Virus record (IMG/VR): IMGVR_UViG_3300025098_000063
Location: 1 to 53,610 of that record
Direction: 5' to 3' (one strand)
DNA from: a virus
Length of the DNA: 53,610 nucleotides
Under the pieces are notes generated by a model. It did no database searches, was not told the origin of the DNA, and saw nothing but the letters and a program-made list of their open reading frames with translations. Shown in pieces: positions 20,218-44,523 of this stretch; position 1 is the first letter of the stretch, and the number at the start of each line of letters is the position of its first letter. Both the position numbers and the translations under genes were made by a program.

Positions 20218-20646
20218 ATGAGAAGATCTGCCAGTGAAGTAATCCGTAATCTTGAGAGTCGTATTGCACAACTTGAAAAATCTGCAAAGTCTACTCCGAT
20301 TACATTGGAGTCTCCAGGTAGTCAGATGAGGGGTACTGTAAATACTCAGACTGTAAACGGTTTGAAAGAAATGCTCAAATCCGTACAAGAAATGTACGAC
20401 ATGGGTACATATATTGAAGACCCTAAAGATGAGTTTGAAGAGATTAATGTTTCTTGGGACTATAAAGGTTGGATTGATCTCGGAAACAGTATTCAGTTCC
20501 AGGTCAATCACGAAATCAACTACGATGGTAACCCTTACCTTGAGGTATCTAAAGAGGAACTTTGTAGAGCCATGTGTGCAGAGGGTCTTTGCGATGACCT
20601 TATCAAGAAGTTCTTAAAGAGAAACTTAAAGAACCATTCTATGTAG
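20218..20646 (+). CDS. SASE-tag protein (shared N-terminal motif), 142 aa
   Basis: Begins MRRSASEVIRNLESRIAQLE, the tag shared with six other proteins here. RIAQLE fits the R-h-x-x-h-E pattern known to favour trimeric coiled coils. After a Ser/Thr/Pro linker the body is unrelated to the other members, with an acidic beta-rich centre (EINVSWDYKGWIDLGNSIQF) and a helical C-terminus with two Cys. It is the only plus-strand member. Strong AATGGAG ribosome site. I infer a virion or assembly role from the tag and class B promoter. Confidence 0.65.
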   Translation: MRRSASEVIRNLESRIAQLEKSAKSTPITLESPGSQMRGTVNTQTVNGLKEMLKSVQEMYDMGTYIEDPKDEFEEINVSWDYKGWIDLGNSIQFQVNHEINYDGNPYLEVSKEELCRAMCAEGLCDDLIKKFLKRNLKNHSM

Positions 20647-20653
20647 GATTCTT

Positions 20654-20923
20654 TTATCCCTCGTCTTCAATGTGGTCGAGGGATGATTTAGAGACATAGA
20701 CAGGAGTGTGCTCTCCCCAATATGCACCGAGTACATTAAACTCGTACCACTCCCAAGCCATTTCATAGGCTCTTTCCTCATCAGTTTCTTCATCTTGAAA
20801 CTCATTTTTCCAATGAGAAATCATCCTGTCGAGGTCATACACAAGAGCGTAAGGCTTTGAAGCTACACCTATAATCATGCTGTCAAATACTGATCTCGGT
20901 TCAAGGTAAACAAGATTTTCCAT
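20654..20923 (-). CDS. hypothetical acidic protein, 89 aa
   Basis: ATG at 20923 with AAAAGGAGCA. Acidic and Trp-rich (FQDEETDEERAYEMAWEWYE). The C-terminal codons coincide with copy 2 of the 21-bp repeat. It converges on the tag gene ending at 20646. No family recognised. Confidence 0.6.
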   Translation of the reverse strand: MENLVYLEPRSVFDSMIIGVASKPYALVYDLDRMISHWKNEFQDEETDEERAYEMAWEWYEFNVLGAYWGEHTPVYVSKSSLDHIEDEG

Positions 20924-21018
20924 TTTTTTGCTCCTTTTGAGGTTAGTTTTGTATAATACCAATGTGAGTGTTATTGAACGCTCCGATGATCTTTGAAAAC
21001 TTGTTGAACTTAACTTGA

Positions 21019-21085
21019 ACACCTATGCTCTTTGGTAAGAGCGTCAGATGACTGACGATGACAGGTTCGACTCCTGTTAGGTGTT
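21019..21085 (+). tRNA. atypical tRNA-like gene with shortened anticodon arm
   Basis: Acceptor ACACCTA/TAGGTGT (7 bp), D arm GCTC-loop TTTGGTAA-GAGC, and T arm ACAGG-TTCGACT-CCTGT are all intact. Between D and T arms there are only 18 bases; the best stem is GTCAG/CTGAC with a 4-base loop. At 67 nt it is about six bases short of a normal tRNA, and no anticodon can be assigned. It may be degenerate or a specialised tRNA-like RNA. Confidence 0.5.
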
Positions 21086-21087
21086 TT

Positions 21088-21162
21088 AGGTTATCCTCCC
21101 CTTTAGTTTTTTCACACTTTAAGTTTGAGAGTACCAAGGTTTAGGCAATGGGGGGATAACCT
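21088..21162 (+). other. long-loop hairpin after tRNA-like element
   Basis: AGGTTATCC (21088-21096) pairs with GGATAACCT (21154-21162), extended by C/G runs, around a ~57-base loop. It is the first of five stems of this type following tRNA or tRNA-like genes in this cluster. Confidence 0.55.
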
Positions 21163-21166: not shown

Positions 21167-21238
21167 GCATTAGTAGCTCAGTGGAAGAGCAACACTTTCC
21201 TAAAGTGTAGGTCGTAGGTTCGATCCCTACCTAGTGTA
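21167..21238 (+). tRNA. tRNA-Arg (CCU)
   Basis: Complete cloverleaf: acceptor GCATTAG/CTAGTGT with G-U pairs, D arm GCTC/GAGC, anticodon stem ACACT/AGTGT, loop TTCCTAA giving CCU (reads AGG), T arm GTAGG-TTCGATC-CCTAC. No encoded CCA. The body closely resembles tRNA-Arg(UCU) at 21903. Confidence 0.88.
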
Positions 21239-21240
21239 CT

Positions 21241-21313
21241 AGACCCTCCTTTTCATCTTTTTACAAAAATATCTAGGGGTAGATAGTGGGTAGATGTGGA
21301 AGGGTCTTTTTTT
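21241..21313 (+). terminator. long-loop hairpin with T-run after tRNA-Arg(CCU)
   Basis: AGACCCT (21241-21247) pairs with AGGGTCT (21301-21307), followed by seven T residues. It is the only stem of the series with a T-run, so it could terminate transcription, although the ~50-base loop is unusual for an intrinsic terminator. Confidence 0.5.
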
Positions 21314-21316
21314 ATC

Positions 21317-21370
21317 ATGTCAGACCTCAATGGTGAGGTTGAGAAATAGGGTTCGATCCCCTCTGATGTG
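21317..21370 (+). ncRNA. tRNA-like element without anticodon arm (54 nt)
   Basis: Acceptor ATGTCAG (21317-21323) pairs with CTGATGT (21363-21369) with two G-U pairs. The D arm is ACCTC-AATGGT-GAGGT. The T arm is AGGG-TTCGATC-CCCT with the standard T-loop. Only seven bases separate D and T arms, so there is no room for an anticodon arm. It cannot decode; it could be a processing signal, a decoy or a remnant. Confidence 0.5.
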
Positions 21371-21372
21371 TT

Positions 21373-21438
21373 AGACTCCCCCTACTTTCTTTTATTTTCT
21401 TGTCTTGGATAAAAGAGGAGTAGGGTAGGGGTGGGTCT
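21373..21438 (+). other. long-loop hairpin after tRNA-like element
   Basis: AGACTCCCCCTAC (21373-21385) pairs with 21425-21438 over 13 base pairs with one bulged T and one G-U, around a ~39-base loop. Same AGACyCC/GGGTCT theme as its neighbours. No T-run follows. Confidence 0.55.
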
Positions 21439-21469
21439 ATTAGGCGATTTACCGAGACAAGAAGAAAAA

Positions 21470-21577
21470 ATGCTGTGCCTAAGCCAGTATACCTACGAAA
21501 GCCCGTATGCGTGGGAGACTGTAGACAAGAGAAAGCGGTGGGTCAACCTCTCAGACCTAAGCCCTCACTACACTTGA
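21470..21577 (+). CDS. small protein, 35 aa
   Basis: MLCLSQYTYESPYAWETVDK followed by a basic, aromatic stretch to a TGA. AAGAAG lies five bases before the ATG. Too short for family recognition, but the ribosome site and a plausible hydrophilic composition support it. It lies between two tRNA-like elements. Confidence 0.4.
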   Translation: MLCLSQYTYESPYAWETVDKRKRWVNLSDLSPHYT

Positions 21578-21607
21578 GAGATAACATTAACCTTTAGGAG
21601 TTTGATT

Positions 21608-21685
21608 ATGAGTAATCCAAACTATCCATCTAAGACTGGAAACCCATCGGGTGGAGGTCGAGGAAACACACCTAAATCTAAATAA
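21608..21685 (+). CDS. Gly/Asn/Pro-rich microprotein, 25 aa
   Basis: MSNPNYPSKTGNPSGGGRGN plus TPKSK. TTAGGAG precedes the ATG at ideal spacing. No Cys, no hydrophobic core, and C-terminal Lys residues: likely disordered. The stop is followed by a short hairpin. Function unknown. Confidence 0.5.
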   Translation: MSNPNYPSKTGNPSGGGRGNTPKSK

Positions 21686-21787
21686 GGATTTAGATGAAAT
21701 CCACACTCTGTAAAAGTGATCTTCTTCCCTTTTACTCATAAACACTATCTGTTGTTCCTAGATAGGTGGTAAAAAAGGAACACCTAA

Positions 21788-21839
21788 CATATCTGACTCC
21801 TCTTGGTGGAGCTTGTCGGGTTCGACTCCCACAGATATG
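21788..21839 (+). ncRNA. tRNA-like element without anticodon arm (52 nt)
   Basis: Acceptor CATATCTG (21788-21795) pairs perfectly with CAGATATG (21832-21839). D arm CTCC-TCTTGGT-GGAG; T-loop TTCGACT on a short, bulged stem (GGG/CCC). As at 21317, there is no anticodon arm. It is followed two bases later by another AGACCC-type stem. Confidence 0.5.
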
Positions 21840-21840
21840 C

Positions 21841-21896
21841 TAGACCCTCTTTTTATTGTTCATTTTGAACGGTGTGTGATAATCTTCGAGGGTCTA
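21841..21896 (+). other. long-loop hairpin after tRNA-like element
   Basis: TAGACCCTC (21841-21849) pairs perfectly with GAGGGTCTA (21888-21896), 38-base loop, no T-run. Directly upstream of tRNA-Arg(UCU). Confidence 0.55.
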
Positions 21897-21902
21897 AACT
21901 TT

Positions 21903-21974
21903 GCACTTGTAGCTCAGTGGAAGAGCAGGGGCCTTCTAAGCCCAAGGTCGTAGGTTCGACCCCTACCAGGTGCG
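21903..21974 (+). tRNA. tRNA-Arg (UCU)
   Basis: Acceptor GCACTTG/CAGGTGC, D arm GCTC/GAGC, anticodon loop CTTCTAA giving UCU (reads AGA) on a four-pair stem with one mismatch, T arm GTAGG-TTCGACC-CCTAC. No encoded CCA. Confidence 0.87.
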
Positions 21975-21976
21975 TT

Positions 21977-22075
21977 CGCTTGATTGGCATAAGACCTCTT
22001 ATTGGAGATTTCTCTAATAGGGTTAGTTCTCCTTTAAGAGATCAAACTTTGGTTCGATTCCAAATCGAGCGACCA
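21977..22075 (+). ncRNA. tRNA-like element with encoded CCA and abnormal central arms
   Basis: CGCTTGA (21977-21983) pairs with TCGAGCG (22065-22071), followed by A and CCA. The T arm TTTGG-TTCGATT-CCAAA is perfect. The 64 bases between do not give a normal D and anticodon arm. They form a 10-12-bp hairpin (21997-22022) and a short TCTC/GAGA stem. No anticodon can be assigned. It could be a degenerate long-variable-arm tRNA or a dedicated tRNA-like RNA. Confidence 0.4.
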
Positions 22076-22396
22076 CACTCTGTTCCTTTATAGGAACTCT
22101 TCAAACAGACGCATAGAGAGTAGTGGAAAAACAGATAAGCGTTTGCTCTGGCTTATTTGGGGTCTGTTTACGCTTCTTATTGCCACCGTTAAAGAAGATG
22201 CAAGCTCTTGGAGAACTATGGCTTTCGCACCATAACCTACCTAAGAGGGAAGCAGACCAAAAATGTCAAATGGTGAAGCGAGGGCATTACGCTAATGCGA
22301 ATAAGGCATCGAGGGAGTCTGCTCATTCCTCTCGTTCATATCTCCTTTGCTCTTGGTAAAAGGGATATGAGCCAATTTTGTTGTGAGGTAGAAATC
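22076..22396. other. gene-poor stretch between tRNA-like element and membrane protein gene
   Basis: Holds a GTTCC/GGAAC hairpin near 22085-22096 and a 10-codon micro-ORF (22263-22295, MSNGEARALR) behind GAGGGAAG. One frame from ~22111 to 22224 encodes a membrane-like segment (LLWLIWGLFTLLIATV) but lacks an ATG, GTG or TTG with a ribosome site. I do not call a gene here. Confidence 0.4.
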
Positions 22397-22666
22397 ATGG
22401 GTTCTGATAAAGTCGAAAGTTTAAGGGTGTTAGTCAATCAAAAAATGAAGCTCGAAAAGTTCCTTAGTATTTGCGAGGGGCTTCACAGTGTGAGCTTCAT
22501 CATGTTGATCTTCTATGTGGTAACATATAAACACAGTGATACCCTTTATGTTATCGCTTGGTCTTTTTTAGCGGTAGTAGGTTGGCTTATTACCTACCTC
22601 TTAGAGAAGAAGATTTTACTCGTAAAGAAATCCATCGCTGATGAACTCTTTGAAAGAGAAGAGTAA
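22397..22666 (+). CDS. two-helix membrane protein, 89 aa
   Basis: ATG at 22397 with TGAGGTAG seven bases upstream is preferred over an in-frame ATG at 22367. Hydrophobic segments at ~29-43 and 49-69 are separated by a short polar loop and flanked by Lys-rich helices (KKILLVKKSIADELFEREE). Probably an inner-membrane protein. The stop is 3 bases from tRNA-Asn. No family recognised. Confidence 0.6.
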   Translation: MGSDKVESLRVLVNQKMKLEKFLSICEGLHSVSFIMLIFYVVTYKHSDTLYVIAWSFLAVVGWLITYLLEKKILLVKKSIADELFEREE

Positions 22667-22669
22667 TAT

Positions 22670-22741
22670 GCTCACTTAGCTCAGTGGTAGAGCAATCGGC
22701 TGTTAACCGATCGGTCCAAGGTTCAAATCCTTGAGTGAGCG
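22670..22741 (+). tRNA. tRNA-Asn (GUU)
   Basis: Acceptor GCTCACT/AGTGAGC perfect, anticodon stem ATCGG/CCGAT, loop CTGTTAA giving GUU, T arm CAAGG-TTCAAAT-CCTTG. All canonical. No encoded CCA. Confidence 0.93.
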
Positions 22742-22775
22742 ATACCTCCTTTGGTTGGTGGTTAAGAGCAACCAT

Positions 22776-22844
22776 GACCCCTCATGTAAATGGGTTGTGC
22801 AAAGATAGCTTCTAGGTTGTTGGTCGCTTCTTTGTTTAGGGGTC
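22776..22844 (+). other. long-loop hairpin after tRNA-Asn
   Basis: GACCCCT (22776-22782) pairs with AGGGGTC (22838-22844) across a ~55-base loop. Fifth stem of the series that follows tRNA or tRNA-like genes. Confidence 0.45.
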
Positions 22845-22850
22845 GCTTAT

Positions 22851-22922
22851 GTACCTGTAGCTCAACGAACAGAGCCTCATCGTTGTAGGTGAGAGGTCTA
22901 GGTGTAAGTCCTAGTGGGTGCA
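22851..22922 (+). tRNA. degenerate tRNA, tentatively Thr (UGU)
   Basis: Acceptor GTACCTG/TGGGTGC with three G-U pairs, D stem GCTC/GAGC but with no GG in the loop, anticodon stem CTCAT/GTGAG enclosing an 8-base loop containing T-TGT-A, T stem CTAGG/CCTAG but loop TGTAAGT instead of TTCRANY. The fold is present, but several invariant bases are lost, so it may be a pseudogene. Confidence 0.45.
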
Positions 22923-23325
22923 AATTGGAGTTAAGTATATGTCCGCTGTCGGAGGTTCGTTAACATTTCCCTTCCGATGGAAGTTGCCCTCTCTACTACG
23001 CTAGTCGAAATCCACTACAGAGGAAGCGTAAATGACAGACCACTTAACTTGAGTAGTGATAGTCGCTTACTCGATTGAAACATATCGGGTAGGTAGAACC
23101 TCTACCCTTACAGGATTACTCCTGTGAGCTATACTAATACAGAAAATGTTAACGCTGTGGCTTTACGCTGATTGTGGTATGTACTTGGAGGACTTAAGCC
23201 CATCCTACCCTAAGACTCGTTCAACTCTTATTCGTTTAAGGGGAATGGGCTTATAGTAGAATGACTAGCTTGGTCTAGGATTTCCCTAGACCATACTACT
23301 AAGGGTAGGGAAACTTACCCACTTT
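22923..23325. other. structured stretch without a confident gene
   Basis: Contains a 21-codon micro-ORF (22939-23004, MSAVGGSLTFPFRWKLPSLL-R) behind TTGGAG, a 6-codon ORF behind AGAGGAAG at ~23032, and many stems: GGGTAG/CTACCC, CAGGA/TCCTG, AAGCCCAT/ATGGGCTT with a long loop, and TGGTCTAGG/CCTAGACCA. Possibly a non-coding RNA or tRNA-operon spacer; no known RNA family recognised. Confidence 0.35.
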
Positions 23326-23408
23326 GGACAGGTGGTCGAGTGGTTAAAGACATCAGACTGTAAATCTGACCTCTTAGGAGTACGCAGGTTCAAATCCTGC
23401 CCTGTCCA
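23326..23408 (+). tRNA. tRNA-Tyr (GUA)
   Basis: Acceptor GGACAGG/CCTGTCC perfect, anticodon stem TCAGA/TCTGA, loop CTGTAAA giving GUA, long variable arm typical of bacterial tRNA-Tyr, T arm GCAGG-TTCAAAT-CCTGC. No encoded CCA. Confidence 0.93.
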
Positions 23409-23424
23409 TTAAAGGATAAAACAC

Positions 23425-23661
23425 ATGAGTACAAAAGCGACAATCGCACATGGAGATGAGTTCCATGTGTACCAAGAGATGTTTGAGGGGGATGCCGTCT
23501 ATCTCCAAATAGATAAGCATGGTGGGTTCGTTCAGATCATGGGCGATAGGATTACTGTAAGCCTACCTCCGAGCCTTTTAGACAAGATCGCAAAGGGTTG
23601 GCTAGATAATCGTGGAAAGTTCGATACAGAGCCAAATAAAGAGCTTAATCTTGAGGGTTAA
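23425..23661 (+). CDS. conserved small hypothetical protein, 78 aa
   Basis: MSTKATIAHGDEFHVYQEMF and a following strand-rich half (AVYLQIDKHGGFVQIMGDRI, TVSLPP) resemble a small family I have seen as TKATIAHG...FHLYxEVxDxxxVYLEL in phages and bacteria; no function is known for it. AAAGGAT precedes the ATG. It begins 17 bases after tRNA-Tyr. Confidence 0.65.
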   Translation: MSTKATIAHGDEFHVYQEMFEGDAVYLQIDKHGGFVQIMGDRITVSLPPSLLDKIAKGWLDNRGKFDTEPNKELNLEG

Positions 23662-23671
23662 AGAAAGAGTC

Positions 23672-23689
23672 GTAACCCCTTATCTATAG
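23672..23689 (+). promoter_or_regulatory. class A promoter-like box
   Basis: GTAACCCCTTATCTATAG, perfect match, 10 bases after the stop at 23661 and 33 bases before the 27-aa ORF at 23722. Confidence 0.7.
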
Positions 23690-23721
23690 CCTAGTGTATC
23701 AACAACCACTAGGAGTCAAAT

Positions 23722-23805
23722 ATGAGCTTTTTTATCATGTCGGTCATCTTTGCAGTTGTGTTCGCACCTGCGTTTGATGTCCACCTCTACTTGAAGAAGG
23801 TGTAA
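23722..23805 (+). CDS. 27-aa membrane peptide
   Basis: MSFFIMSVIFAVVFAPAFDV followed by HLYLKKV. CTAGGAG lies upstream of the ATG, it has its own perfect class A box, and its stop codon lies within the next box. The peptide is one hydrophobic helix with a basic end, like known small inner-membrane peptides. Function unknown. Confidence 0.55.
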   Translation: MSFFIMSVIFAVVFAPAFDVHLYLKKV

Positions 23806-23819
23806 CCCCTTATTTATTA
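23802..23819 (+). promoter_or_regulatory. class A promoter-like box overlapping a stop codon
   Basis: GTAACCCCTTATTTATTA; its TAA is the stop of the 27-aa peptide gene. 23 bases before the ATG at 23842. Confidence 0.65.
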
Positions 23820-23841
23820 ACTCTTGAAAGGAGAACCAACT

Positions 23842-24081
23842 ATGTCAGATCACATCAGCCCAATCGTTTGGTCTAAGCCTGTAGGCAAGGCCGCTGATAC
23901 TAACGCATCTCGTATCGCTCGCATCAAGTCATACCGAGATGAACATACCACCGTCCTCGCAAACGGTGTCCGTCCGATCCCTAAGATCGAAACTATCCTC
24001 AACATCCTCAACTGCCACGATATGTTTGAGGGTCGGTTTGAAGCTCGCCTCATTGTTGAGATGGACGACTTCCGAGTGTAA
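23842..24081 (+). CDS. hypothetical protein, 79 aa
   Basis: ATG with GAAAGGAGAA upstream. Starts MSDHISPIVWSKPVGKAADT, basic N-terminal half and helical C-terminus (KIETILNILNCHDMFEGRFE). Its own class A box before it and another overlapping its stop codon make it a single-gene transcription unit. No family recognised. Confidence 0.6.
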   Translation: MSDHISPIVWSKPVGKAADTNASRIARIKSYRDEHTTVLANGVRPIPKIETILNILNCHDMFEGRFEARLIVEMDDFRV

Positions 24082-24095
24082 CCCCTTATTGTATC
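24078..24095 (+). promoter_or_regulatory. class A promoter-like box overlapping a stop codon
   Basis: GTAACCCCTTATTGTATC; its TAA is the stop of the 79-aa gene. The -10 part deviates most from consensus. 39 bases before the ATG at 24134. Confidence 0.55.
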
Positions 24096-24133
24096 CTTAA
24101 ACATCAACCCCTACTCCCCAATGGAGAACAGAT

Positions 24134-24502
24134 ATGCCATACGACTTAAACTACAATCACTTCAACTATGTTCGGAGCTTCGAGAGTGAGATCAAGTCTC
24201 ACCTTGAGAAGCCCGACCTCCCCTACCTTGCTCGGCAGTTCGCCATGATGGGCTGTGGGAGAAACTTCCTCGATGGAACTCTCGTGTGGCCTCACGAGAG
24301 TCTTGATCAGCAGTTCAATGAGATGGTTCACCATCTCCTCAAAGAGTACAAGCTCTTAGACACCCTTCGGGGCTACTTTGAGTTTGACTGCACTCTTGAT
24401 GAGGATAATCCTAACAAGGTTCTCGTTAAGGGTTCAGACAAGGATATAGTATCGTTCCTTGTGGATGATCCCGATCCCCGATACTTCACCCTTTCCGACT
24501 AA
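24134..24502 (+). CDS. hypothetical protein, 122 aa
   Basis: ATG with AATGGAGAA upstream. Mixed alpha/beta: aromatic N-terminus (MPYDLNYNHFNYVRSFESEI), a helical centre (FNEMVHHLLKEYKLLDTLRG) and an acidic end (DPDPRYFTLSD). No family recognised. Last gene before tRNA-Glu. Confidence 0.6.
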   Translation: MPYDLNYNHFNYVRSFESEIKSHLEKPDLPYLARQFAMMGCGRNFLDGTLVWPHESLDQQFNEMVHHLLKEYKLLDTLRGYFEFDCTLDEDNPNKVLVKGSDKDIVSFLVDDPDPRYFTLSD

Positions 24503-24564
24503 AAAAAGACTTGCATAGGGGTGTTCAGATCAGATAAAAGACTCACCAACTACCTTCTATTCAA

Positions 24565-24637
24565 GGTCCATTCGTCTAGGGGTCTAGGACACTGGCCTTT
24601 CACGCCAGGAACACGAGTTCAAATCTCGTATGGATCA
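24565..24637 (+). tRNA. tRNA-Glu (UUC)
   Basis: Acceptor GGTCCAT/ATGGATC with one G-U, anticodon stem CTGGC/GCCAG, loop CTTTCAC giving UUC, T arm ACGAG-TTCAAAT-CTCGT. Canonical; no encoded CCA. Confidence 0.92.
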
Positions 24638-24672
24638 TTAGGTGTTAAGCACCCATCGTTGCGAGTCATGTC

Positions 24673-24888
24673 ATGAAAAAAGTTAAGTTCACCAAGAAAG
24701 ACGGAAAGAAGTCGTACATCGAGGTCGATCAGTCTTTACTTAAAAACAAAATCCTCTCCCTCTATGGAGACAATAATCCTTACTCACTACAGAGCTTTTT
24801 GAACAACCCCCTTTCTTTCTCAGTAGATCGTGTAAACTATCAGAGGTTCAACTACTCTGATGGGAGCTTTGAGTATAAGGAGATGTAG
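24673..24888 (+). CDS. hypothetical basic protein, 71 aa
   Basis: MKKVKFTKKDGKKSYIEVDQ, a very Lys-rich N-terminus, then an Asn/Ser-rich middle and Tyr-rich end. The ribosome site is weak (GCGAG). Its last base overlaps the GTG start of the next gene, which supports a coupled pair. No family recognised. Confidence 0.5.
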   Translation: MKKVKFTKKDGKKSYIEVDQSLLKNKILSLYGDNNPYSLQSFLNNPLSFSVDRVNYQRFNYSDGSFEYKEM

Positions 24889-25094
24889 TGGGTTATCAAT
24901 CTAAGTGGGCTAAAGACAGGTCTAAGAGTAAGATAAACAAGATAGCTTCTCTGAAGCACCTTGCGAACAAGGTGTCAGACCCAACAGACAAAGCTAAAAT
25001 TGAAGAGTTGATCTCTGTCTACCTAGACGCTCATGACTTTACAACAAGAGTAGGGTTAGAGATTGCAAAGTATGGAGACAAGTACACAGAGTAA
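24888..25094 (+). CDS. hypothetical helical protein, 68 aa
   Basis: GTG start overlapping the stop of the gene before (TAGTG), with AAGGAG five bases upstream. Starts MGYQSKWAKDRSKSKINKIA, all helical, basic N-terminus and mixed C-terminus. No family recognised. Confidence 0.55.
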   Translation: MGYQSKWAKDRSKSKINKIASLKHLANKVSDPTDKAKIEELISVYLDAHDFTTRVGLEIAKYGDKYTE

Positions 25095-25136
25095 TCATAT
25101 AATGTGATCTAAACTGATTGCTTTAAGGATTATCCT

Positions 25137-25277
25137 ATGTACGACAACAAGAGTATATACTGCGAGAGATGCAAAAAAGACCGATGGGTAGGGGCGACCT
25201 GCTCGGCTTCAAAGAAGAATGAAAAGTGTGTCGATAAAATCTTTTTCACTAAAAAAAGAGTTGAAAAGAGTCTCTAA
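25137..25277 (+). CDS. small zinc-knuckle-like protein, 46 aa
   Basis: CERC at residues 9-12 plus Cys22 and Cys31 could hold one zinc ion, and the C-terminus is Lys-rich (FFTKKRVEKSL). TTAAGGAT precedes the ATG, and a TCATATAA element (25095-25103) precedes that. Below the size of most annotated genes but well supported by start signals. Confidence 0.5.
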   Translation: MYDNKSIYCERCKKDRWVGATCSASKKNEKCVDKIFFTKKRVEKSL

Positions 25278-25319
25278 AGAGGGGTAGAAGATCACTCCAA
25301 TCATATAAGTATTACATGA

Positions 25320-25392
25320 GGGTTGTTAGCTCAATTGGTAGAGCAACGGACTTTTAATCCGCAGGTTCTGGGTTCGAGTCCCAGACGACCCA
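25320..25392 (+). tRNA. tRNA-Lys (UUU)
   Basis: Acceptor GGGTTGT/ACGACCC, D arm GCTC/GAGC, anticodon loop CTTTTAA giving UUU on a four-pair stem with one A-C mismatch, T arm CTGGG-TTCGAGT-CCCAG. Degenerate copies lie at 28618 and 29459. Confidence 0.9.
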
Positions 25393-25423
25393 TCTGTTAA
25401 ATGCTTATATGATTGGAGATGCA

Positions 25424-26491
25424 GTGCAGGAGATCAAGAAATACTCTTTTGAACAAGAGATACATGGAACGACCGTTCGTGTCGAACTACCCGACTACAA
25501 GATTAGAGAAATCAGCGAGTCCGAGGGGAAGAACTTTGATCAGTTCTTAAAAGACACGAACGCTAAAATTGTCGGAACTATCTATCCCGATACTTTCCCA
25601 AAAGGAGCAGAACCTTTTACGACTCATCTTTTGGATGTGCGTACAAAAAATACCGATTTCAGTTATTATCACGCTAGCTATGATAAGAACGCTAAAAGAG
25701 ACTATGCGTATCACATGAAACTCATTCCATCGGGTGAGTTTGAAGCCGTAAGGTCACCGAATCAATCTAACTGCGAACGAGACAATCCTCATAAGTATCT
25801 TGATACTATGCCTAAAGAGGGTTCAATCAAGGTTAAGATCACTCGCCCCTTTTGGATTGGCACTCACATGGTAAGTGGGAATCTCATCTCACATTATGTT
25901 CGGAAGTCTGCAACGAGAAAACCATCAAGAGATTGGAGCTTTGAAAGTACCGCTAGGTATGAGCATCTTTGTAATGAACTCTCCGAAGCAATCGGTTTAG
26001 AACCTTGTTATTTCAATAACGAAGTAGACATCACTAAGAATGGCTTCAGATTGCCCACAGAAGCTGAGTGGTATTATGTCGCCAAAGCTAATGAAGATTT
26101 CGTCTATTCGGGTTCAGACAATATAAATTCAGTTGCCCATTGGAGAGGTGGTCATGGTCTTAAATGGTACAACTATAACCAAGTAGGGAAACTAAAGCCT
26201 AACGCTTGGGGTATGTATGACATGAGTGGCAACGGAAATGAACTTGTCCATAACTCATTTGGTACGCTCAAAGGTAGATACTCTAGCAACAAAGAATGCC
26301 CTATGGGTGAGCTAGATGGAGAGGGTTATCTTGTAGACCCTATTTCAGAGATACGCACTAACTATTTGGTGGCTAAAGGAGGTTCACATGAACCTTACGA
26401 AAATGACTGGTCGGCAACAACTTGTCGTATCGACTTTAGAAACACTTATGCCCATCACCCTATGTTTAGACTTGTAAGGAACGCACTATGA
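25424..26491 (+). CDS. FGE/SUMF1-fold protein without the canonical active site
   Basis: GTG at 25424 is chosen because GATTGGAGA, the leader also used at 28724, lies just upstream; an ATG at 25409 would precede that ribosome site. The protein has the formylglycine-generating-enzyme (C-type-lectin-like) block order: KLIPSGEFEAVRS, FWIGTHMVSG, GFRLPTEAEWYYVAKA, PNAWGMYDMSGNGNELVHN, AKGGSH, FRLVRNAL. The usual NVWEW is replaced by NGNELV, and only one Cys (TTCRIDFRN) stands where FGE has a reactive pair, so sulfatase maturation is unlikely. In phages this fold often binds ligands at the tail tip; in diversity-generating retroelements it is the variable target, but no reverse transcriptase is seen here. 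Confidence 0.75.
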   Translation: MQEIKKYSFEQEIHGTTVRVELPDYKIREISESEGKNFDQFLKDTNAKIVGTIYPDTFPKGAEPFTTHLLDVRTKNTDFSYYHASYDKNAKRDYAYHMKLIPSGEFEAVRSPNQSNCERDNPHKYLDTMPKEGSIKVKITRPFWIGTHMVSGNLISHYVRKSATRKPSRDWSFESTARYEHLCNELSEAIGLEPCYFNNEVDITKNGFRLPTEAEWYYVAKANEDFVYSGSDNINSVAHWRGGHGLKWYNYNQVGKLKPNAWGMYDMSGNGNELVHNSFGTLKGRYSSNKECPMGELDGEGYLVDPISEIRTNYLVAKGGSHEPYENDWSATTCRIDFRNTYAHHPMFRLVRNAL

Positions 26492-27303
26492 AGAAACTAA
26501 GTATCAAAAAAAATGTGACAAAAGAGATCACTTTCACCACAGTAAAAAAAGGTAAAGCCGACCTCAAAAAAGACGGTGGTACTGTCAGAGGGAGACATAT
26601 AGTCAGAGTTACTATGATGGTAGGGAATGACTATAAAACTATCGCTGGTCTTGATCTAAACAAGATGAAATCAAGTTCTTACATTGATCATTATGAGAGT
26701 GTGAAAGAAAAAACGGGTCTCGACTTCAGCACCCTTGATTTTGGGTTTGCTTGGAGGAGTCGCAGTCTTCTTGAGGGTTTGGAACAATCAAGCCAAGGTG
26801 AGAACGATTATAGCACTCATTTAAAGACATACAATCCACACCCAAGTGGAGTTCGTGGAGTCTTGGTACATAAAGAGACTGGAAACCTCTACATCATGGG
26901 TGTGGTTGTGGAGGAAAAAATCATTCAACATGACCCTAAAGGTAATGCTCGTAAGACAAAGGGATCTACGAGAGGAGCTATCGTAAAAGGCATACAAGAA
27001 GAACTTGGACTCCATAGTGGTAAGTGGAGAATGTATCAGTTAGCCAAAGACACAACGATTAATGGTCTTGGTGTTGAAGATAAGATCGAAGAACCTAAAG
27101 AAGATAAGATCGAAGATACTAAATATGTTCGCATCTACACAATCTTAAACAAAGACAATGAGGTAGTGAAGACTTCTAAGGGTAGATACTATTTCACTAG
27201 AGAGATTGCCCGACAAGCTCGTAAAGAGGTAGCTCTTAAGCAAAAGAAAGTTAGGATTGCTGAGAGTTGGTTTACATCAAGCGAATGGAAGACTGCAAAA
27301 TGA
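26488..27303 (+). CDS. hypothetical basic protein, 271 aa
   Basis: Overlaps the FGE-fold gene by an ATGA. The N-terminus is Lys-rich (MKKLSIKKNVTKEITFTTVK). Residues ~125-180 (GVRGVLVHKETGNLYIMGVV, RGAIVKGIQEELGL) form a beta-then-helix unit. A charged repeat, VEDKIEEPKEDKIEDTK, links it to a basic C-terminal domain. The coupling suggests it acts with the FGE-fold protein, perhaps as chaperone or partner. No family recognised. Confidence 0.6.
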   Translation: MKKLSIKKNVTKEITFTTVKKGKADLKKDGGTVRGRHIVRVTMMVGNDYKTIAGLDLNKMKSSSYIDHYESVKEKTGLDFSTLDFGFAWRSRSLLEGLEQSSQGENDYSTHLKTYNPHPSGVRGVLVHKETGNLYIMGVVVEEKIIQHDPKGNARKTKGSTRGAIVKGIQEELGLHSGKWRMYQLAKDTTINGLGVEDKIEEPKEDKIEDTKYVRIYTILNKDNEVVKTSKGRYYFTREIARQARKEVALKQKKVRIAESWFTSSEWKTAK

Positions 27304-27641
27304 GTACGATTGATCGAGTCGAAAAAAGTCTGAGGAATAATTACTTCGCATCCTCTCAGTTTGAAACCGTAGGGTCTTTCTTTATTCATCTATGCTACAA
27401 GTATGAAGCGGAGAAAGCAGGAGCTATATGTGAATGGGCAGTGTCTCATCTTGCAGACGATGGCTATGTAAACAAAGGATCGCTTCAAACACTTGATAAA
27501 ATACTCTCTAACGACACTTTGTCCGATATAGATAGGGAGTATGCAGAGATCGTAAGAAAAGCGATTGGTGGTTGTGATTTTGGACTCTCACGAACACCTA
27601 AACATTGGCATAAGACAGGACTGAAAGGACTAAGCAGATGA
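27300..27641 (+). CDS. paralogue family P1, member 1 (113 aa)
   Basis: ATGA overlap with the preceding gene; GGAAG upstream. Shares with the gene at 28724 the pattern FETVGxFFxxLxxxYxxxKAGxIxEWxVxxLADxGYVxKG and LSDxDREYAEIVxKxxxxxDFGLxRTPKxW; the gene at 27758 is a more distant copy. All-helical small proteins of unknown function in three copies inside 1.8 kb, next to tRNA-Lys or its pseudogene. Confidence 0.65.
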   Translation: MSTIDRVEKSLRNNYFASSQFETVGSFFIHLCYKYEAEKAGAICEWAVSHLADDGYVNKGSLQTLDKILSNDTLSDIDREYAEIVRKAIGGCDFGLSRTPKHWHKTGLKGLSR

Positions 27642-27734
27642 GTGAACCATTTGAAGGTTGGGAGCAACTGGTGTCATGTAGATCCAACCGAAACAGAAGA
27701 CGATTTTTTAGACGATGATGATGTTATCATATAA
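27638..27734 (+). CDS. small ORF pair, possibly one frameshifted acidic protein
   Basis: An ATG at 27638 with AAAGGA at ideal spacing, overlapping the previous stop, opens a 26-codon frame that ends at 27718 in a basic tail (NRNRRRFFRR). In the +1 frame, 27642-27734 encodes a much more protein-like acidic tail, NWCHVDPTETEDDFLDDDDV-II. Either a +1 shift near the GGTTGGGAGC sequence joins the two or one base has been lost. I cannot decide which frame is used. Confidence 0.3.
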
Positions 27735-27757
27735 CTTTACGATTGGGAGACTACAAA

Positions 27758-28072
27758 ATGAAAAGAACTACTGCTTGGGGTTGTGATAAAGAGTGTTTGG
27801 CTATGGGTCGATTTTACAACTATCTGTCTCAACATTTGAGTCTTGAAGCAGAAAAGGTGGGTCGGGTCATGGCTTGGGCAGAGGAAGTCTTTGAACAAGA
27901 TCAGCTTTATACTAAAGAGATGAAGATCACTGTTAAGATTCTCTTAACTTCGGGTACTGAGGAGGACAAAGAGTTCGCTCAGTATGCTCAAGATGCTATT
28001 GAGGAAGTCAACTTTGGTATGATTAGGATGCCTAGAGATCATCAGATGCGTTATCGGAAAGAGATTCGTTGA
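27758..28072 (+). CDS. paralogue family P1, member 2 (104 aa)
   Basis: ATG at 27758 with TTGGGAGA upstream and a TCATATAA element at 27726-27733. Divergent relative of the 27300 and 28724 proteins: LSLEAEKVGRVMAWAEEVFE and EDKEFAQYAQDAIEEVNFGM align with their KAG-EWA and DREYAEIV-DFGL blocks. Function unknown. Confidence 0.6.
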   Translation: MKRTTAWGCDKECLAMGRFYNYLSQHLSLEAEKVGRVMAWAEEVFEQDQLYTKEMKITVKILLTSGTEEDKEFAQYAQDAIEEVNFGMIRMPRDHQMRYRKEIR

Positions 28073-28088
28073 AGCGTTTGGTTGATCT

Positions 28089-28178
28089 ACAACATTTCCT
28101 AACAAGCCTATCTCTTTTTGAGATAAGTGTTTATCATTCGCTTATGATAAAGGGCTATGGAAAAACTTAAAATGTTGT
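28089..28178 (+). ncRNA. predicted three-way-junction RNA between convergent genes
   Basis: ACAACATTT (28089-28097) pairs with AAATGTTGT (28170-28178). Inside, AGCC (28105-28108) pairs with GGCT (28153-28156) and encloses two hairpins: TATCTC-TTTTT-GAGATA (28109-28125) and TTTATCAT-TCGCTT-ATGATAAA (28130-28151). Another small stem, GGTAAG/CTTACT, follows at 28183-28200. It could be a structured RNA or a bidirectional terminator. Confidence 0.4.
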
Positions 28179-28207
28179 GCAAGGTAAGAAACACCTTACT
28201 CTAGGAT

Positions 28208-28534
28208 CTAGCAAGATCGAAAGGCTGAATGGGCCTCTCTTCTGTTTGTTGTGATCTCCTCAACACGACAATCATCTGCTCTAAGAGAGCATTTTACGAC
28301 TGCAAATACTTCTCCTACGGACACGAGGAAAACGCTGTTGCTCCCACTCATCTTAGCATCGAGATCTACGATCTCCTTCGCTTCGTAGGCCATATCCATT
28401 TCTTCATAGATTTCGTCAAGAAGCTGACCCTCGGCAAAGGAAGGCATCTGACTAGCCGTTTTTCTCGTTGCACTTTCAAGTCTTGCAATTCTCATCTCAA
28501 GGTTACGAATGATTTCACTAGCAGATCTTCTCAT
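28208..28534 (-). CDS. SASE-tag protein, 108 aa (paralogue of 29040-29390)
   Basis: Begins MRRSASEIIRNLEMRIARLE. The body is also related to the 29040 gene: LLDEIYEEMDMAYEAKEIVD, a strand pair around SVFLVSVGEVFAVVKC, and an Arg-rich C-terminus. The ribosome site is AATGGAGAA inside the TTAACCTTAACC leader shared by most tag genes, behind a weaker class B box at ~28583. Virion or assembly role inferred only. Confidence 0.65.
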   Translation of the reverse strand: MRRSASEIIRNLEMRIARLESATRKTASQMPSFAEGQLLDEIYEEMDMAYEAKEIVDLDAKMSGSNSVFLVSVGEVFAVVKCSLRADDCRVEEITTNRREAHSAFRSC

Positions 28535-28617
28535 AATGGTTCTCCATTGGTTAAGGTTAAAGAGATCACTTATTGGTGAGTGATAAAGAAACTACAAATC
28601 ATATAAGAGAGGCATGA

Positions 28618-28689
28618 GGGCAGTTAGCTCAATCGGTAGAGCAGTAGACTTTAATCTATTGGTTCTGAGTTCGAGTTCCAGACGACCCA
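28618..28689 (+). pseudogene. degenerate tRNA-Lys copy
   Basis: Aligns with tRNA-Lys at 25320 through the D arm (GTTAGCTCAAT-GGTAGAGCA), the anticodon region and the 3' end (CGAGT..CCAGACGACCCA). The acceptor 5' half is GGGCAGT, giving two mismatches; the anticodon loop has lost a T (CTTTAA) and the T stem has two poor pairs. Probably non-functional. Confidence 0.6.
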
Positions 28690-28723
28690 CTCTGTAAATG
28701 CTCTTATATGATTGGAGACAATA

Positions 28724-29035
28724 ATGAGCCTAGAACGCAAAGAGCTTCAGAAGCATCTCTTTTGCAATACTCAGTACGAGACTGTTGGACTATTCTTTTT
28801 CGATTTGATCCATCAGTATCAAGGGGATAAGGCAGGGTCTATTCTTGAATGGACAGTCTGTACACTTGCCGACACCGGCTATGTGAGAAAGGGTATGCTC
28901 ACACATCTCAAGAAGCTCTTAAAGGATGAGTCTTTATCTGACCAAGATCGGGAGTATGCTGAGATTGTCTATAAGAGCGTAGACGACTACGACTTTGGTC
29001 TACAGCGAACCCCTAAAAACTGGATGCAGAGATAA
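28724..29035 (+). CDS. paralogue family P1, member 3 (103 aa)
   Basis: ATG at 28724; GATTGGAGACA upstream, the same leader as the FGE-fold gene, and again just 3' of a tRNA-Lys copy. Close relative of the 27300 protein: QYETVGLFFFDLIHQYQGDK, GSILEWTVCTLADTGYVRKG, SLSDQDREYAEIVYKSVDDY, DFGLQRTPKNW. Function unknown. Confidence 0.65.
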   Translation: MSLERKELQKHLFCNTQYETVGLFFFDLIHQYQGDKAGSILEWTVCTLADTGYVRKGMLTHLKKLLKDESLSDQDREYAEIVYKSVDDYDFGLQRTPKNWMQR

Positions 29036-29039
29036 GATC

Positions 29040-29390: not shown

Positions 29391-29437
29391 AATGGTTCTC
29401 CATTGGTTAAGGTTAAAGAGATCACTTATTGATAGGG

Positions 29438-29450: not shown

Positions 29451-29458
29451 CAAATCAT

Positions 29459-29483: not shown

Positions 29484-29528
29484 CTATACATCTTGGTGGT
29501 GATACTTTGTGTGGTATCATTACCACAC

Positions 29529-39318: not shown

Positions 39319-39747
39319 TTAGAAGCGAATGTAAAGTCCTGTACCCTCTTCAAAGCGATCTTTGATGTCCTCTGCATAGACATCGTTGAACTCTTTAACA
39401 ACCTTTACGCTACGACCATGAGTACGAATGAACTCCATGTCATATAAGTCCATGCCATTAAGAGTAATGCGTACTCGGTTCACTGCACCAGCGTGTTTTG
39501 GTTTTGGGAATACAAGGGTGACACCCAAAGGCTCATTGATAAGTTGTTTGAGTCCAATGAACATCTGCAACTTGCGTCCTCCACCGAGCTGTTGGACGAT
39601 GGTAGCCGCAATCGCATTGGCACTCTTACTCTCTTGTGCTTGTCTTTTGCAAGTACAATGTGAGCAACCACAACCACTAGACTGCTTCTCTAGTCGTGCG
39701 ACCCTGTTCTCTAGGTTTCTTAGCATTTCACTAGCTGATCTTCTCAT
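39319..39747 (-). CDS. SASE-tag protein with Cys cluster, 142 aa
   Basis: ATG at 39747 with AAATGGAGAA upstream. Begins MRRSASEMLRNLENRVARLE, followed at once by a Cys-rich patch (GCGCSHCTCKR) that could bind zinc or an iron-sulfur centre. The rest is a beta-rich domain (LGVTLVFPKPKHAGAVNRVR, ITLNGMDLYDMEFI). TTAACCTTAACC leader as in the other tag genes. Confidence 0.65.
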   Translation of the reverse strand: MRRSASEMLRNLENRVARLEKQSSGCGCSHCTCKRQAQESKSANAIAATIVQQLGGGRKLQMFIGLKQLINEPLGVTLVFPKPKHAGAVNRVRITLNGMDLYDMEFIRTHGRSVKVVKEFNDVYAEDIKDRFEEGTGLYIRF

Positions 39748-39811
39748 AAGGTTCTCCATTTGGTTAAGGTTAAAGAGATTACCTATGGAGAACCGATAAA
39801 GAGACTACAAA

Positions 39812-42548: not shown

Positions 42549-43119
42549 AGTACCCTCTAGTTGGATTGTGGACAGACCCGAACTCACTCAGCCGAGACAT
42601 GAATCTATCTTGGATGGCTACTAAGTATTCCTCAAGTGTCTCAAAGCCATCTTCTCTGCCCCATTCTTCATAGTTTTCAACAGGGTAGATACTGATTTCA
42701 GTCATGCCAGAATACTCAGTGCTTTTTTCTTTAAATGCAGAAACCTCTACACCAAGAACGGAGTGGTGAAGCCAACCTCGCCCCCTTCGGTTAGATCTGA
42801 TACCAGAAGCGTGTAGGATGATTTCTTCTTTGGTGTTCTTTCCAACAATGATGTCTGGAAGCTGAAGCTCTTTTGGTGTTTTAAGTTCAACGGTTAATCC
42901 ACTATTAGAGATAAAGATGCCGTGATCCCAACCTAGATTATCAATAAAACTCCCGATCTTTAAAGTAAGATCTTCAAGTTCTCCCATATCATTAAAGTGA
43001 AGCCCACTGAATTGAAGGGAAAGTAAGTCTTTTCTGACATGAGTCGTAAGTGATCTTCCTCCTAGTGAACTAAAAAAACTTTTAGCATCTAGTGCTATAT
43101 CATCGTTGATGTTTTTCAT
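42535..43119 (-). CDS. hypothetical protein, 194 aa
   Basis: AAAGGAG precedes the ATG. Alpha/beta: helical N-terminus (MKNINDDIALDAKSFFSSLG), strands (LTVELKTPKELQLPDIIVGK), a basic loop (GIRSNRRGRGWLHHS) and a C-terminal helix (LEEYLVAIQDRFMSRLSEFG). A weak class B-like box lies at ~43146. No family recognised. Confidence 0.6.
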   Translation of the reverse strand: MKNINDDIALDAKSFFSSLGGRSLTTHVRKDLLSLQFSGLHFNDMGELEDLTLKIGSFIDNLGWDHGIFISNSGLTVELKTPKELQLPDIIVGKNTKEEIILHASGIRSNRRGRGWLHHSVLGVEVSAFKEKSTEYSGMTEISIYPVENYEEWGREDGFETLEEYLVAIQDRFMSRLSEFGSVHNPTRGYFTVS

Positions 43120-43215
43120 ATCTTCTACTCCTTTACGATATGGTGGGTCATAAACGGTCTACAAATTGTATAAGGGTAGTGTTCACATTAACCTTAACCA
43201 CAATGGAGGTCGCAC

Positions 43216-43683
43216 ATGAGCGATAAGTGGAAAGCAGGACCAGAAGTCCAAGAGCAGATCAATCATCTCATCGGAAACGCACACCCTCATCTCGCAGACA
43301 TCATGGATGACATCGTAGTCATCTTCAAAGAGAAGTGTTCAAGGAAGGGTGGTCGCCCTATTCTCGGTAAGACATCTAAAGCACCTGGTATTCTTTCAGT
43401 TCTTGGAGATCACGCATACGAGTTCGTCATTGAGCTTGGTGCAGACTGTTGGAACAATCTCAATGAGGCACAGCGTTTAGCTCTCCTCGATCATCTTCTC
43501 TGCTTCATTGGTGGTGAGGAGGACGAGAAGTCGGGTGAGATGAAGTATTTCCTCTCTACTCCCGATGTCTTTTACTTCTCAGAAGAGGTAGAGCGTAATG
43601 GTAGCTGGCGTGAGGACATGATGCCCGATGGTGTACCCGAAGAAGAAGGCTCAGACGCACCTTTGTTAGACCCTATCGGATAA
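43216..43683 (+). CDS. putative phage metallopeptidase-like protein with degenerate zinc motif
   Basis: 155 aa. HAYEFVIELGADCWNNLNEA-QRLALLDHLLCFIGG (66-100) aligns by layout with the putative phage metallopeptidase family I remember as xYDFVIxxxxDxWxxLxxxQRxALIDHELCH, and TPDVFYFSEEVERNGSW with its GHDVEEF...RRHG block. The catalytic HELCH has become HLLCF (93-97), losing Glu and the second His, so zinc hydrolysis is unlikely and it may now be a binding protein. ACAATGGAGG precedes the ATG with a TTAACCTTAACC leader. The MazG gene follows after 10 bases. Confidence 0.6.
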   Translation: MSDKWKAGPEVQEQINHLIGNAHPHLADIMDDIVVIFKEKCSRKGGRPILGKTSKAPGILSVLGDHAYEFVIELGADCWNNLNEAQRLALLDHLLCFIGGEEDEKSGEMKYFLSTPDVFYFSEEVERNGSWREDMMPDGVPEEEGSDAPLLDPIG

Positions 43684-43693
43684 GGAGCTTCAC

Positions 43694-44173
43694 ATGAAAT
43701 ACAGACGCATGGAATATGTTGACGGACGAGAGCAAATGATCGTTGCTACAAAGGAAGAGATTGATCGTGAAGCAGGGCTTCTTCCAGGTCATAACGCTTT
43801 CAATGCTGATTTCATTTTAGATGGTTGGGAGGAGTTCTCTGACGAGACATTCAACAACTACCAACAGGCAACAGCACAGACTGCCAAGTACCCACCCGAC
43901 CAAGCTCTTGAGTACCTTTCACTTGGTATTGCAAGTGAAGCAGGTGAGGTCGCAGGTAAGATGAAGAAGTGGATTCGTGATGGAGACAGCAAGATGACTC
44001 GTGAAGAGTGGGTTCAAGCTATGTCATCAGAAATCGGTGATGTGCTTTGGTACTCCGCTCGCCTAGCTGATGAGCTTGGTCTAAGCCTCTCACAGATTGC
44101 AGAGGACAATATGGATAAGCTCTTAGACCGTAAGGCGAGGGGTGTTATCGGAGGTAGTGGAGATAACCGTTAG
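43694..44173 (+). CDS. MazG-type nucleoside triphosphate pyrophosphohydrolase
   Basis: 159 aa. The C-terminal two thirds is a MazG domain: LEYLSLGIASEAGEVAGKMKK (72-92; Glu82 and Glu85) and SEIGDVLWYSARLADELGL (112-130; Glu113 and Asp116) form the ExxE...ExxD magnesium site, and NMDKLLDRKARGVI is the typical end. These enzymes hydrolyse (d)NTPs to monophosphates, and in phages are thought to tune nucleotide or ppGpp pools. The N-terminal ~60 residues are extra. TAAGGAG precedes the ATG. Confidence 0.88.
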   Translation: MKYRRMEYVDGREQMIVATKEEIDREAGLLPGHNAFNADFILDGWEEFSDETFNNYQQATAQTAKYPPDQALEYLSLGIASEAGEVAGKMKKWIRDGDSKMTREEWVQAMSSEIGDVLWYSARLADELGLSLSQIAEDNMDKLLDRKARGVIGGSGDNR

Positions 44174-44523
44174 GCTTTAGACTCAATAAGCGTGTATGTC
44201 TTAGAGAGGTCAGCAAGACAACTTTTTAAGTCTGCACCCTTATCAAAGATGACTTGAGTCGCAACCATAGGGTTAGAACCTGTACCGATAGAACCCCTCT
44301 GAGTAATTGCAGTTCCCATGTTCATTCTACAAAAGCCCTCGATGTTTTTCAGTTCTGATTTAGGGCAGAATACTTGCAGTGAAACATCGGAGCTGAAATC
44401 TTCATCATAGGAAATTTCTACAAAGACAGGGTTTTTGACTTTCGTGGTTGAGGCTGATCGGTTCTCAAGCCGAGCTAGTCTCATCTCAAGATTTCTGATT
44501 GTTTCTGATGCTGATCTTCTCAT
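44170..44523 (-). CDS. SASE-tag protein, 117 aa
   Basis: Begins MRRSASETIRNLEMRLARLE. The body is beta-rich (NPVFVEISYDEDFSSDVSLQ, VFCPKSELKNIEGFCRMNMG) with a Gly/Thr/Ser-rich loop and helical C-terminus, unrelated to other tag proteins, though the two-Cys, strand-rich layout recalls 20218. AAATGGAGAA ribosome site, class B box at 44573. It overlaps the convergent MazG gene by 4 bases. Confidence 0.65.
   Translation of the reverse strand: MRRSASETIRNLEMRLARLENRSASTTKVKNPVFVEISYDEDFSSDVSLQVFCPKSELKNIEGFCRMNMGTAITQRGSIGTGSNPMVATQVIFDKGADLKSCLADLSKTYTLIESKA

Follow-up and report, generated by a model that had tools for sequence, protein, structure and literature searches.

The DNA analyzed here, a stretch of 53,610 nucleotides from a virus (IMG/VR record IMGVR_UViG_3300025098_000063; hereafter the window), contains seven genes whose products begin with the same N-terminal peptide of about 20 residues, termed tag A (MRRSASExIRNLExRIARLE). 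All seven genes pointed out by the initial annotation translate as it described and carry the tag, and when all six frames were scanned with a regular expression, exactly these seven tag cores turned up in the window and none besides. The gene at 20218–20646 lies on the plus strand, the other six on the minus strand. Residues M1, R3, A5, S6, E7, R10, L12, E13, R15, A17, L19 and E20 show no variation across the seven proteins. The bodies behind the tag had been described as diverged, and after removal of the tag the only homologous pair is indeed 28208/29040 (genes are named by their first coordinate); homology along full-length bodies, named beforehand as the finding that would speak against a modular tag, was looked for and is not the case.

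Gene 20218–20646 (142 aa; tag at 20218–20277) encodes a body of unknown fold. Its counterparts 28208–28534 (108 aa; tag at 28475–28534), a paralog of 29040, and 29040–29390 (116 aa; tag at 29331–29390) show RKTAS and MKKAS past the tag, respectively, while KQAS follows it in 29962–30969 (335 aa; tag at 30910–30969) and NRSAS in 44170–44523 (117 aa; tag at 44464–44523). The C-terminal part of 29962 gives a weak match to the RyR domain, and together with an untagged protein encoded at 49723–50778 it is the richest of the window in the motif [KR]xA[SGN]. Gene 33854–34333 (159 aa; tag MKRLASEVIRELEARVARLE at 34274–34333) has an ortholog in the relative G001 that is 52% identical and also tagged, and the 44170 locus of this relative contains three tagged genes with other bodies. 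The body of 39319–39747 (142 aa; tag at 39688–39747) belongs to phrog_9437 (E 1.5e-19); a structure prediction based on a 4-sequence alignment (mean pLDDT 47) suggests an N-terminal helix. A decaying copy of the tag had also been suspected on the SWIM protein (38227), an assumption we had to abandon: its N-terminus (MRRSSAYLNQITN..) aligns over its full length in three relatives, without the tag core.

Upstream of the tagged genes, we identified a promoter-like pattern consisting of a box and a leader (CATAAGTGATCTCTTTAACCTTAACC..ATGGAGAA). For gene 20218, box TAGTTTATTTATA and leader ATAAGTGATCTC..GGAGA are located at 20156–20217 on the plus strand. On the minus strand, the pattern precedes 28208 (28535–28598), 29040 (29391–29454), 29962 (30970–31033), 39319 (39748–39811) and 44170 (44524–44588). 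The leaders had been reported to be alike, which applies to these six but not to 33854, where an AT-rich box, TAATAAATTATTTATA, is combined with a different leader (34334–34389, minus strand). Judging from sequence, tag A in the window's group comes with a promoter and a leader of its own, the three elements travelling together. In G001, the sequence TTAACC is found upstream of 52% of the tagged vs. 1.9% of the untagged genes. Such a strong association would also be expected if the conserved unit were an RNA or DNA regulatory element comprising promoter, leader and first codons, with the peptide as a by-product. We give this explanation very little chance: the synonymous sites of the tag are nearly saturated, yet the peptide is kept (pS about 0.6–0.7 vs. 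pN about 0.2), the relatives G003 and G004 retain the peptide despite quite different leaders, and elsewhere an unrelated peptide is found on the same cargo families (see below). The peptide of tag A is under purifying selection. No conserved leader RNA structure common to the window's group was found, the leaders of G004 form strong hairpins of their own, and Shine-Dalgarno pairing is no more common in tagged than in untagged genes.

The seven genes of the window are only a small part of a family that is far larger across its relatives. Four related genomes of 376, 312, 290 and 227 kb contain 31, 25, 17 and 12 tagged ORFs, respectively, and altogether our collection amounts to 149 distinct tagged proteins, whose bodies are of about 100 unrelated kinds. 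They comprise 85–373 aa (median 160), and in an alignment of 90 of them conservation is confined to the tag. An unsupervised scan for recurrent N-termini in the 376-kb relative, from which pairs with homologous bodies had been taken out, yielded one component of 29 proteins, 27 of them visibly tagged, while the next largest component contained three; a chance origin of the tag is thereby excluded. Tag A was found in none of the named phages, and it could not be confirmed in any of 84,980 cellular genomes, a weak negative given the long query used in the confirmation step. Tagged genes are accessory: none occurs among 135 core ortholog triplets. Their clustering around the capsid gene is not significant (seven observed vs. 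about 3.3 expected).

The modular nature of tag A proposed by the initial annotation is strongly supported by the size of this family and its many body clusters, by the behavior of individual bodies, and by cargo common to an unrelated tag. Between the window and G001, bodies have been exchanged in situ at fixed loci, whose flanking genes are mostly 80–97% identical. A comparison of L149 with 29962 revealed a domain exchange behind the tag, and L158 is a tagless ortholog of the 39319 body with 79% identity. Homologs of phrog_9437 in KVP40, phiM12 and LR745208 are untagged as well, and the one in LR745208 demonstrates that not all members of a cargo family carry the tag. Taken together, the sequences show that bodies which are orthologous in other respects have acquired or lost tag A. 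One could still assume a single old gene family that was duplicated and diverged, its N-terminus merely being the slowest part, as the similar tag DNA of some window genes and the paralogy of 28208 and 29040 might suggest. This reading has next to no probability. The body clusters include unrelated folds (cupin/JmjC, WGR, pentapeptide, phrog_9437), some of which occur untagged elsewhere, and for the tagged set as a whole common ancestry is refuted by these unrelated bodies, the tagless ortholog and the domain exchange.

Past tag A, we noticed a second, shorter motif at a short and variable distance. Within 15 residues of the tag, [KR]xA[SG] is present in 62 of 147 proteins, compared to seven in shuffled sequences (maximum 17) and to 2.8% of body windows; the first set had given 42 of 91. 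About half of the tags are not followed by a recognizable copy. In all four genomes, the density of [KR]xA[SG] is highest in the scaffold, the protease, one large core protein and the tagged proteins, and the sites in scaffold and protease are conserved. By this enrichment, the tagged proteins have a candidate processing motif in common with scaffold and protease, and [KR]xA[SG] may represent a cleavage site. The protease belongs to a head-maturation family homologous to Tunturi_5 gp331 / phrog_18299; the T4-type family PF03420 (gp21, Peptidase_S77) gave no match in seven relatives, nor was a match to the Terminase_6N family obtained.

The phage LR745208, with a capsid protein (MCP) that is 89% identical, lacks tag A. 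Instead, 11 of its proteins carry the unrelated tag B (TLRSKLIRLAHENPALRPQLLPLLKEA; consensus TLRSKLIRLAHENPxLRPxLLPLLKxA), which is seen again in further giant phages and in 36 of 59 cases (vs. 3.5) has [KR]xA[SGA] at its end. Three cargo families are common to tags A and B (E 2e-42, 3e-45 and 1e-10). A third short motif, RVA[SN]RYM (tag C), is probably a further label for overlapping cargo, with ART-PolyVal (ADP-ribosyltransferase) proteins found under both tag B and tag C. In the window, tag C (RQASRVANAYMSKTAGSG) occurs in the tag A-free protein encoded at 49723–50778 (minus strand), which is a candidate for head packaging. Another untagged protein (51642–53444, minus strand) contains a C-terminal domain (residues 438–598), immediately preceded by the internal motif RMAQRIARVHLE, that LR745208 carries under tag B, and L057 has a related domain under tag A. 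No recurrent N-terminal tag was found in Tunturi_5. Since tags A, B and probably C are attached to overlapping cargo, they look like address labels that are equivalent in function and can replace one another.

With respect to the function of tag A, we consider it quite probable that it is a capsid-targeting propeptide, which works like that of T4 without being homologous to it and has been multiplied genome-wide. The peptide itself, found in a clade of giant myophages, is amphipathic, basic and coiled-coil-like. Its helix would dock the cargo onto the prohead scaffold, possibly at a conserved scaffold coil (LKAANARLARKVRKLA), a correlation based on two states only. The head-maturation protease would then cut at [KR]xA|[SG], and the freed cargo would remain in the head and be injected with the DNA into the next host, acting as early-infection effectors. 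The proposed location in the virion head and the removal of the tag by the head protease are suggested by the motif common to scaffold and protease, by cargo of these tag systems that includes both ADP-ribosyltransferase and WGR proteins, and by the precedents of T4 and P1.

Two other functions have to be weighed against head targeting. All of the 147 tag cores contain the trimeric coiled-coil signature R-h-x-x-h-E noted by the initial annotation, and the pattern is heptad-like, with only L12, R15, L19 and E20 invariant and E13 and A17 nearly so. The tag could accordingly serve as an oligomerization handle alone, a short trimeric coiled coil on many small proteins without a role in sorting. 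This seems improbable, as tag B, which occurs on homologous cargo, lacks such heptads and contains prolines in its interior (LAHENPxLRPxLLPLL), and as the same kind of motif past both tags would be needless for a trimerizer. It is likewise unlikely, if slightly less so, that the tag directs proteins to another site in the infected cell, such as a phage nucleus, a replication site or the membrane. The destination is deduced indirectly, and some tagged cargo of G003 contains long hydrophobic stretches, but the motif past the tag also occurs in scaffold and head protease, and an ADP-ribosyltransferase family linked to injected proteins is part of the cargo of these tag systems. Moreover, a not very sensitive search that covered the window together with a set of genomes gave no credible homolog of the phiKZ nuclear shell protein (gp54) or PhuZ (best E 0.06), and the encoded shell protein that defines import into a chimallivirus nucleus was thus not found.

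Extending head targeting to all three tags, we regard it as fairly likely that a few unrelated but functionally equivalent N-terminal labels (the coiled coil of A, LRSKLIRLAHENPxLRPxLLPLL of B, RVA[SN]RYM of C) serve the giant phages of this capsid lineage as general virion-loading signals, and that nearly any gene can receive a label along with its promoter, resulting in 10–30 exchangeable head-packaged effectors per phage. If tag A is such a signal, a profile some 20 residues long suffices to list the complete packaged, and probably injected, effector set of an uncultured giant phage, a set that is otherwise mostly unannotated. Because almost none of the tagged bodies belongs to a known family, the label makes candidate early-infection effectors out of hypothetical proteins. 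The replacement of one entire tag system by another in phages whose capsid proteins are almost the same would open the putative receptor (a scaffold region) and the principles of head loading to direct tests, and the tag would offer a new signal for protein delivery.

Such labels would be readable directly from the sequence and would resemble the signal sequences that effectors of secretion systems carry. Among phages, the polyvalent proteins, also found in conjugative elements, are predicted to be co-injected with the DNA, and phage ADP-ribosyltransferases provide a precedent for injected proteins (PMC5512222). The ART-PolyVal domain under tags B and C resembles this system, but polyvalent proteins are multidomain chains with several disparate effector domains, whereas those described here are mostly small, separate proteins united by a tag. 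The phiKZ-like phages and SPN3US are giant myophages, too, and of their numerous head proteins some have N-terminal propeptides of 20–250 residues that are cut off by a prohead protease, while 42 head proteins of SPN3US stay uncleaved; the available part of this account reports no single shared tag (PMC10052503), and the head lineage differs from the one studied here. For DarB of P1, the first 30 residues are enough to carry a reporter into the head (PMC9024508), again an N-terminal capsid signal, but on one large protein instead of many small ones. The closest parallel is T4, whose internal proteins IPI-III carry an N-terminal capsid-targeting sequence (CTS) that is proposed to dock on the prohead core and is removed by the head protease, and which also packages the ADP-ribosyltransferase Alt (PMC9026906, PMC5512222). 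Differences are evident: no sequence similarity to the CTS was seen, the protease lies outside the gp21/S77 family, the putative site is [KR]xA[SG] instead of (L/I)xE (in tag A, the two residues before a glutamate are A-S, N-L or R-L and never L-x or I-x), about 12–31 genes per genome are tagged compared to a handful in T4, and tag A has a linked promoter and leader. Nevertheless, both systems place a short N-terminal peptide on proteins that have otherwise diverged and are dispensable and lineage-specific, and the ADP-ribosyltransferase cargo of the sister phages corresponds to Alt of T4.

The initial annotation had described seven open reading frames of the window that share an N-terminal tag (tag A), and this was borne out: 20218-20646, 28208-28534, 29040-29390, 29962-30969, 33854-34333, 39319-39747 and 44170-44523 translate as stated, with the tag starting at the first codon. 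A six-frame scan of the window revealed no eighth copy. Using the seven tags as queries, we retrieved 79 loci from IMG/VR and built a profile from them. The search of related phages that had been suggested gave 31, 27, 17 and 12 matches in relatives of 376, 312, 290 and 227 kb, respectively, and 7 in the window; a slightly raised score cut-off left a list of 92 tagged ORFs, to which the 312-kb genome contributes 25. No model in Pfam, PHROG or NCBIfam describes the tag.

The window, a 53,610-base IMG/VR record without a larger assembly of its own, corresponds in gene order to positions 151-208 kb of the 376-kb relative G001 (IMGVR_UViG_3300033182_000980, 375,691 bases), and most of the proteins that the two share are 80-97% identical. 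The window tail sheath (12853-17703), together with capsid-module genes from the relatives, affiliates the group with two giant phages, LR745208 (485 kb) and Tunturi_5, with Bacillus phage G as a more distant relation. The sheath is very long (1616 aa) and most similar to that of LR745208; those of phage G and mycobacteriophages match its C-terminal quarter only. About ten tRNA genes also cluster in the window (21167-29689); one tRNA has an odd anticodon loop, and one gene was called as tRNA-Pyl (CTA anticodon), a call that Rfam did not confirm.

Genome ORFs and loci combined amounted, after removal of redundancy, to 149 tagged proteins, whose bodies fall into 100 clusters (E 1e-3) and include cupin-8/JmjC, WGR, pentapeptide-repeat and phrog_9437 bodies and, weakly, a RyR domain. 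In an alignment of 90 full tagged proteins, conservation is confined to the tag (mean column identity 6%), with L12, R15, L19 and E20 invariant. None of the 135 one-to-one core orthologues of G001, G003 and G004 is tagged. Five of the seven window genes have no body orthologue in G001, where their neighbors are highly similar, and at the 44170 locus G001 carries three tagged genes with other bodies. The 39319 body, phrog_9437, is tagged in G001, G004 and the loci L038 and L153-L157, in the last five of which the tag is fused to it without a linker. The same body is untagged in L158 (79% body identity) and in remote relatives (e.g., KVP40 and phiM12). In the G001 protein, an extra domain has been inserted between tag and body. 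In L149, the tag directly precedes the C-terminal domain of 29962, and the N-terminal half of that body is absent. Homologues of this domain and of phrog_9437 also occur within long chains on two marine viral contigs, L150 and L165, which are possibly T4-like; recurring peptides in these chains (e.g., EEVEQVDE and ESVNEG) are possibly another head-processing signal. In G001 (78106-79827) and G002 (214552-216282), the tag does not open the frame but follows an uninterrupted upstream domain of 300 residues, so that it may form an inner part of a longer chain or be translated from an internal codon.

Tag copies within genomes differ at 59-71% of synonymous but only ∼19-28% of non-synonymous sites, indicating that they are old and that the peptide itself has been kept. 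Both a promoter-like box, TTTGTAGTTTATTTATA, and a leader with the sequence CATAAGTGATCTCTTTAACCTTAACCAAATGGAGAA accompany the tag in the window, G001 and G002. Upstream of G001 genes, TTAACC precedes 52% of the tagged versus 1.9% of the untagged genes, and a strong GGAGA site 48% versus 1.6%. Since G003 and G004 retain the same peptide under other leaders, it is no mere side effect of the leader. Leaders of tagged genes in G004 often fold into strong hairpins adjoining the ribosome-binding site (e.g., L119:1528-1578), unlike those of the window group.

An unsupervised search for recurrent N-termini in G001 and LR745208 recovered tag A in the former and a different sequence in the latter, which lacks tag A; the major capsid proteins (MCP) of the two phages are 89% and their proteases 42% identical. 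This tag B, TLRSKLIRLAHENPALRPQLLPLLKEA, begins 11 LR745208 proteins whose bodies are unrelated; the gene for one of these lies between scaffold and MCP. It was also found at 45 IMG/VR loci, several of which lie on contigs measuring 265-536 kb; the bodies there form 40 clusters. Tags A and B share three cargo families: the L212/L057 domain (E 2e-42), the WGR protein L238/L070 (E 3e-45) and the L237/L018 domain (E 1e-10). When tag-B bodies were compared with every gene of the tag-A genomes, 3 of the 92 tagged genes matched as against 4 of the 1393 untagged ones (Fisher p 0.007), and three of these four untagged genes carry a motif resembling a third label, tag C. In L230, tag B heads an ART-PolyVal (ADP-ribosyltransferase domain) cargo; in G001, such a cargo has tag C (RVANRYM), likewise a short motif at the N-terminus. 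The tag-C-like motif is located near protein ends, and a reversed control is almost absent. As [RK]VA[SN]xYM, it is seen at one end (N- or C-terminal) of numerous untagged proteins in these phages, among which is an ART-PolyVal ADP-ribosyltransferase; examples are 15198, 97191, 203249, 261617 and 271122 in G001 and 49723-50778 and 50732-51616 in the window. That the same cargo occurs under unrelated labels implies that the common property resides in the labels, not in the bodies, and that the labels are equivalent.

Of 147 proteins with tag A, 62 have [KR]-x-A-[SG] within 15 residues behind the tag (shuffles inside this segment: mean 7.1, maximum 17), compared with 2.8% of body windows. It often lies several residues beyond the tag (SATRKTAS, ANLNRTAS, GGRKVAS) and is therefore not merely its last residues. 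At the end of tag B, [KR]xA[SGA] was found in 36 of 59 cases (shuffles 3.5, maximum 10). When the proteins of a genome are ranked by their content of [KR]xA[SGN], the top ones in all four relatives are a scaffold-like protein, the head-maturation protease and one large core protein, alongside tagged proteins and a few others; 29962 (tagged) and 49723 rank highest in the window. The scaffold and protease sites are conserved in alignments, and a similar motif directly precedes the conserved TQPLxxRRDY in both capsid-type proteins (KLAAS-MTQPL in the MCP, DKHAS-LTQPL in the second MCP-like protein of G004). We infer that the motif is a site of the head-maturation protease. A large conserved protein, G001 8726-11338, with orthologues in G003, G004 and LR745208, contains 10-11 [KR]xA[SGN] motifs and is possibly a second scaffold or core protein.

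The most economical destination of the labelled cargo would be the head, because the motif behind the labels concentrates in scaffold and protease, T4 packages an ADP-ribosyltransferase, Alt (PMC5512222), and N-terminal capsid-targeting peptides are proven in T4 (PMC9026906) and P1 (PMC9024508). In the tag-A genomes, the scaffold contains a single conserved coil, AxLKAANARLARKVRKL, that is missing from the LR745208 scaffold; this coil could be the tag A receptor, a correlation resting on two states only.

The proposed parallel to T4 internal proteins would hold for function but not for descent: judged from sequence, tag A would act like the T4 and P1 signals, but it does not belong to the T4 family, whose S77 protease and (L/I)xE site are both absent here. 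We found no earlier description of such a tag system in the literature searched, the coverage of which was incomplete. Compared with these known signals, three features are new: each genome has as many as 12-31 tagged genes, a promoter and leader are coupled to the tag, and tags are exchangeable.
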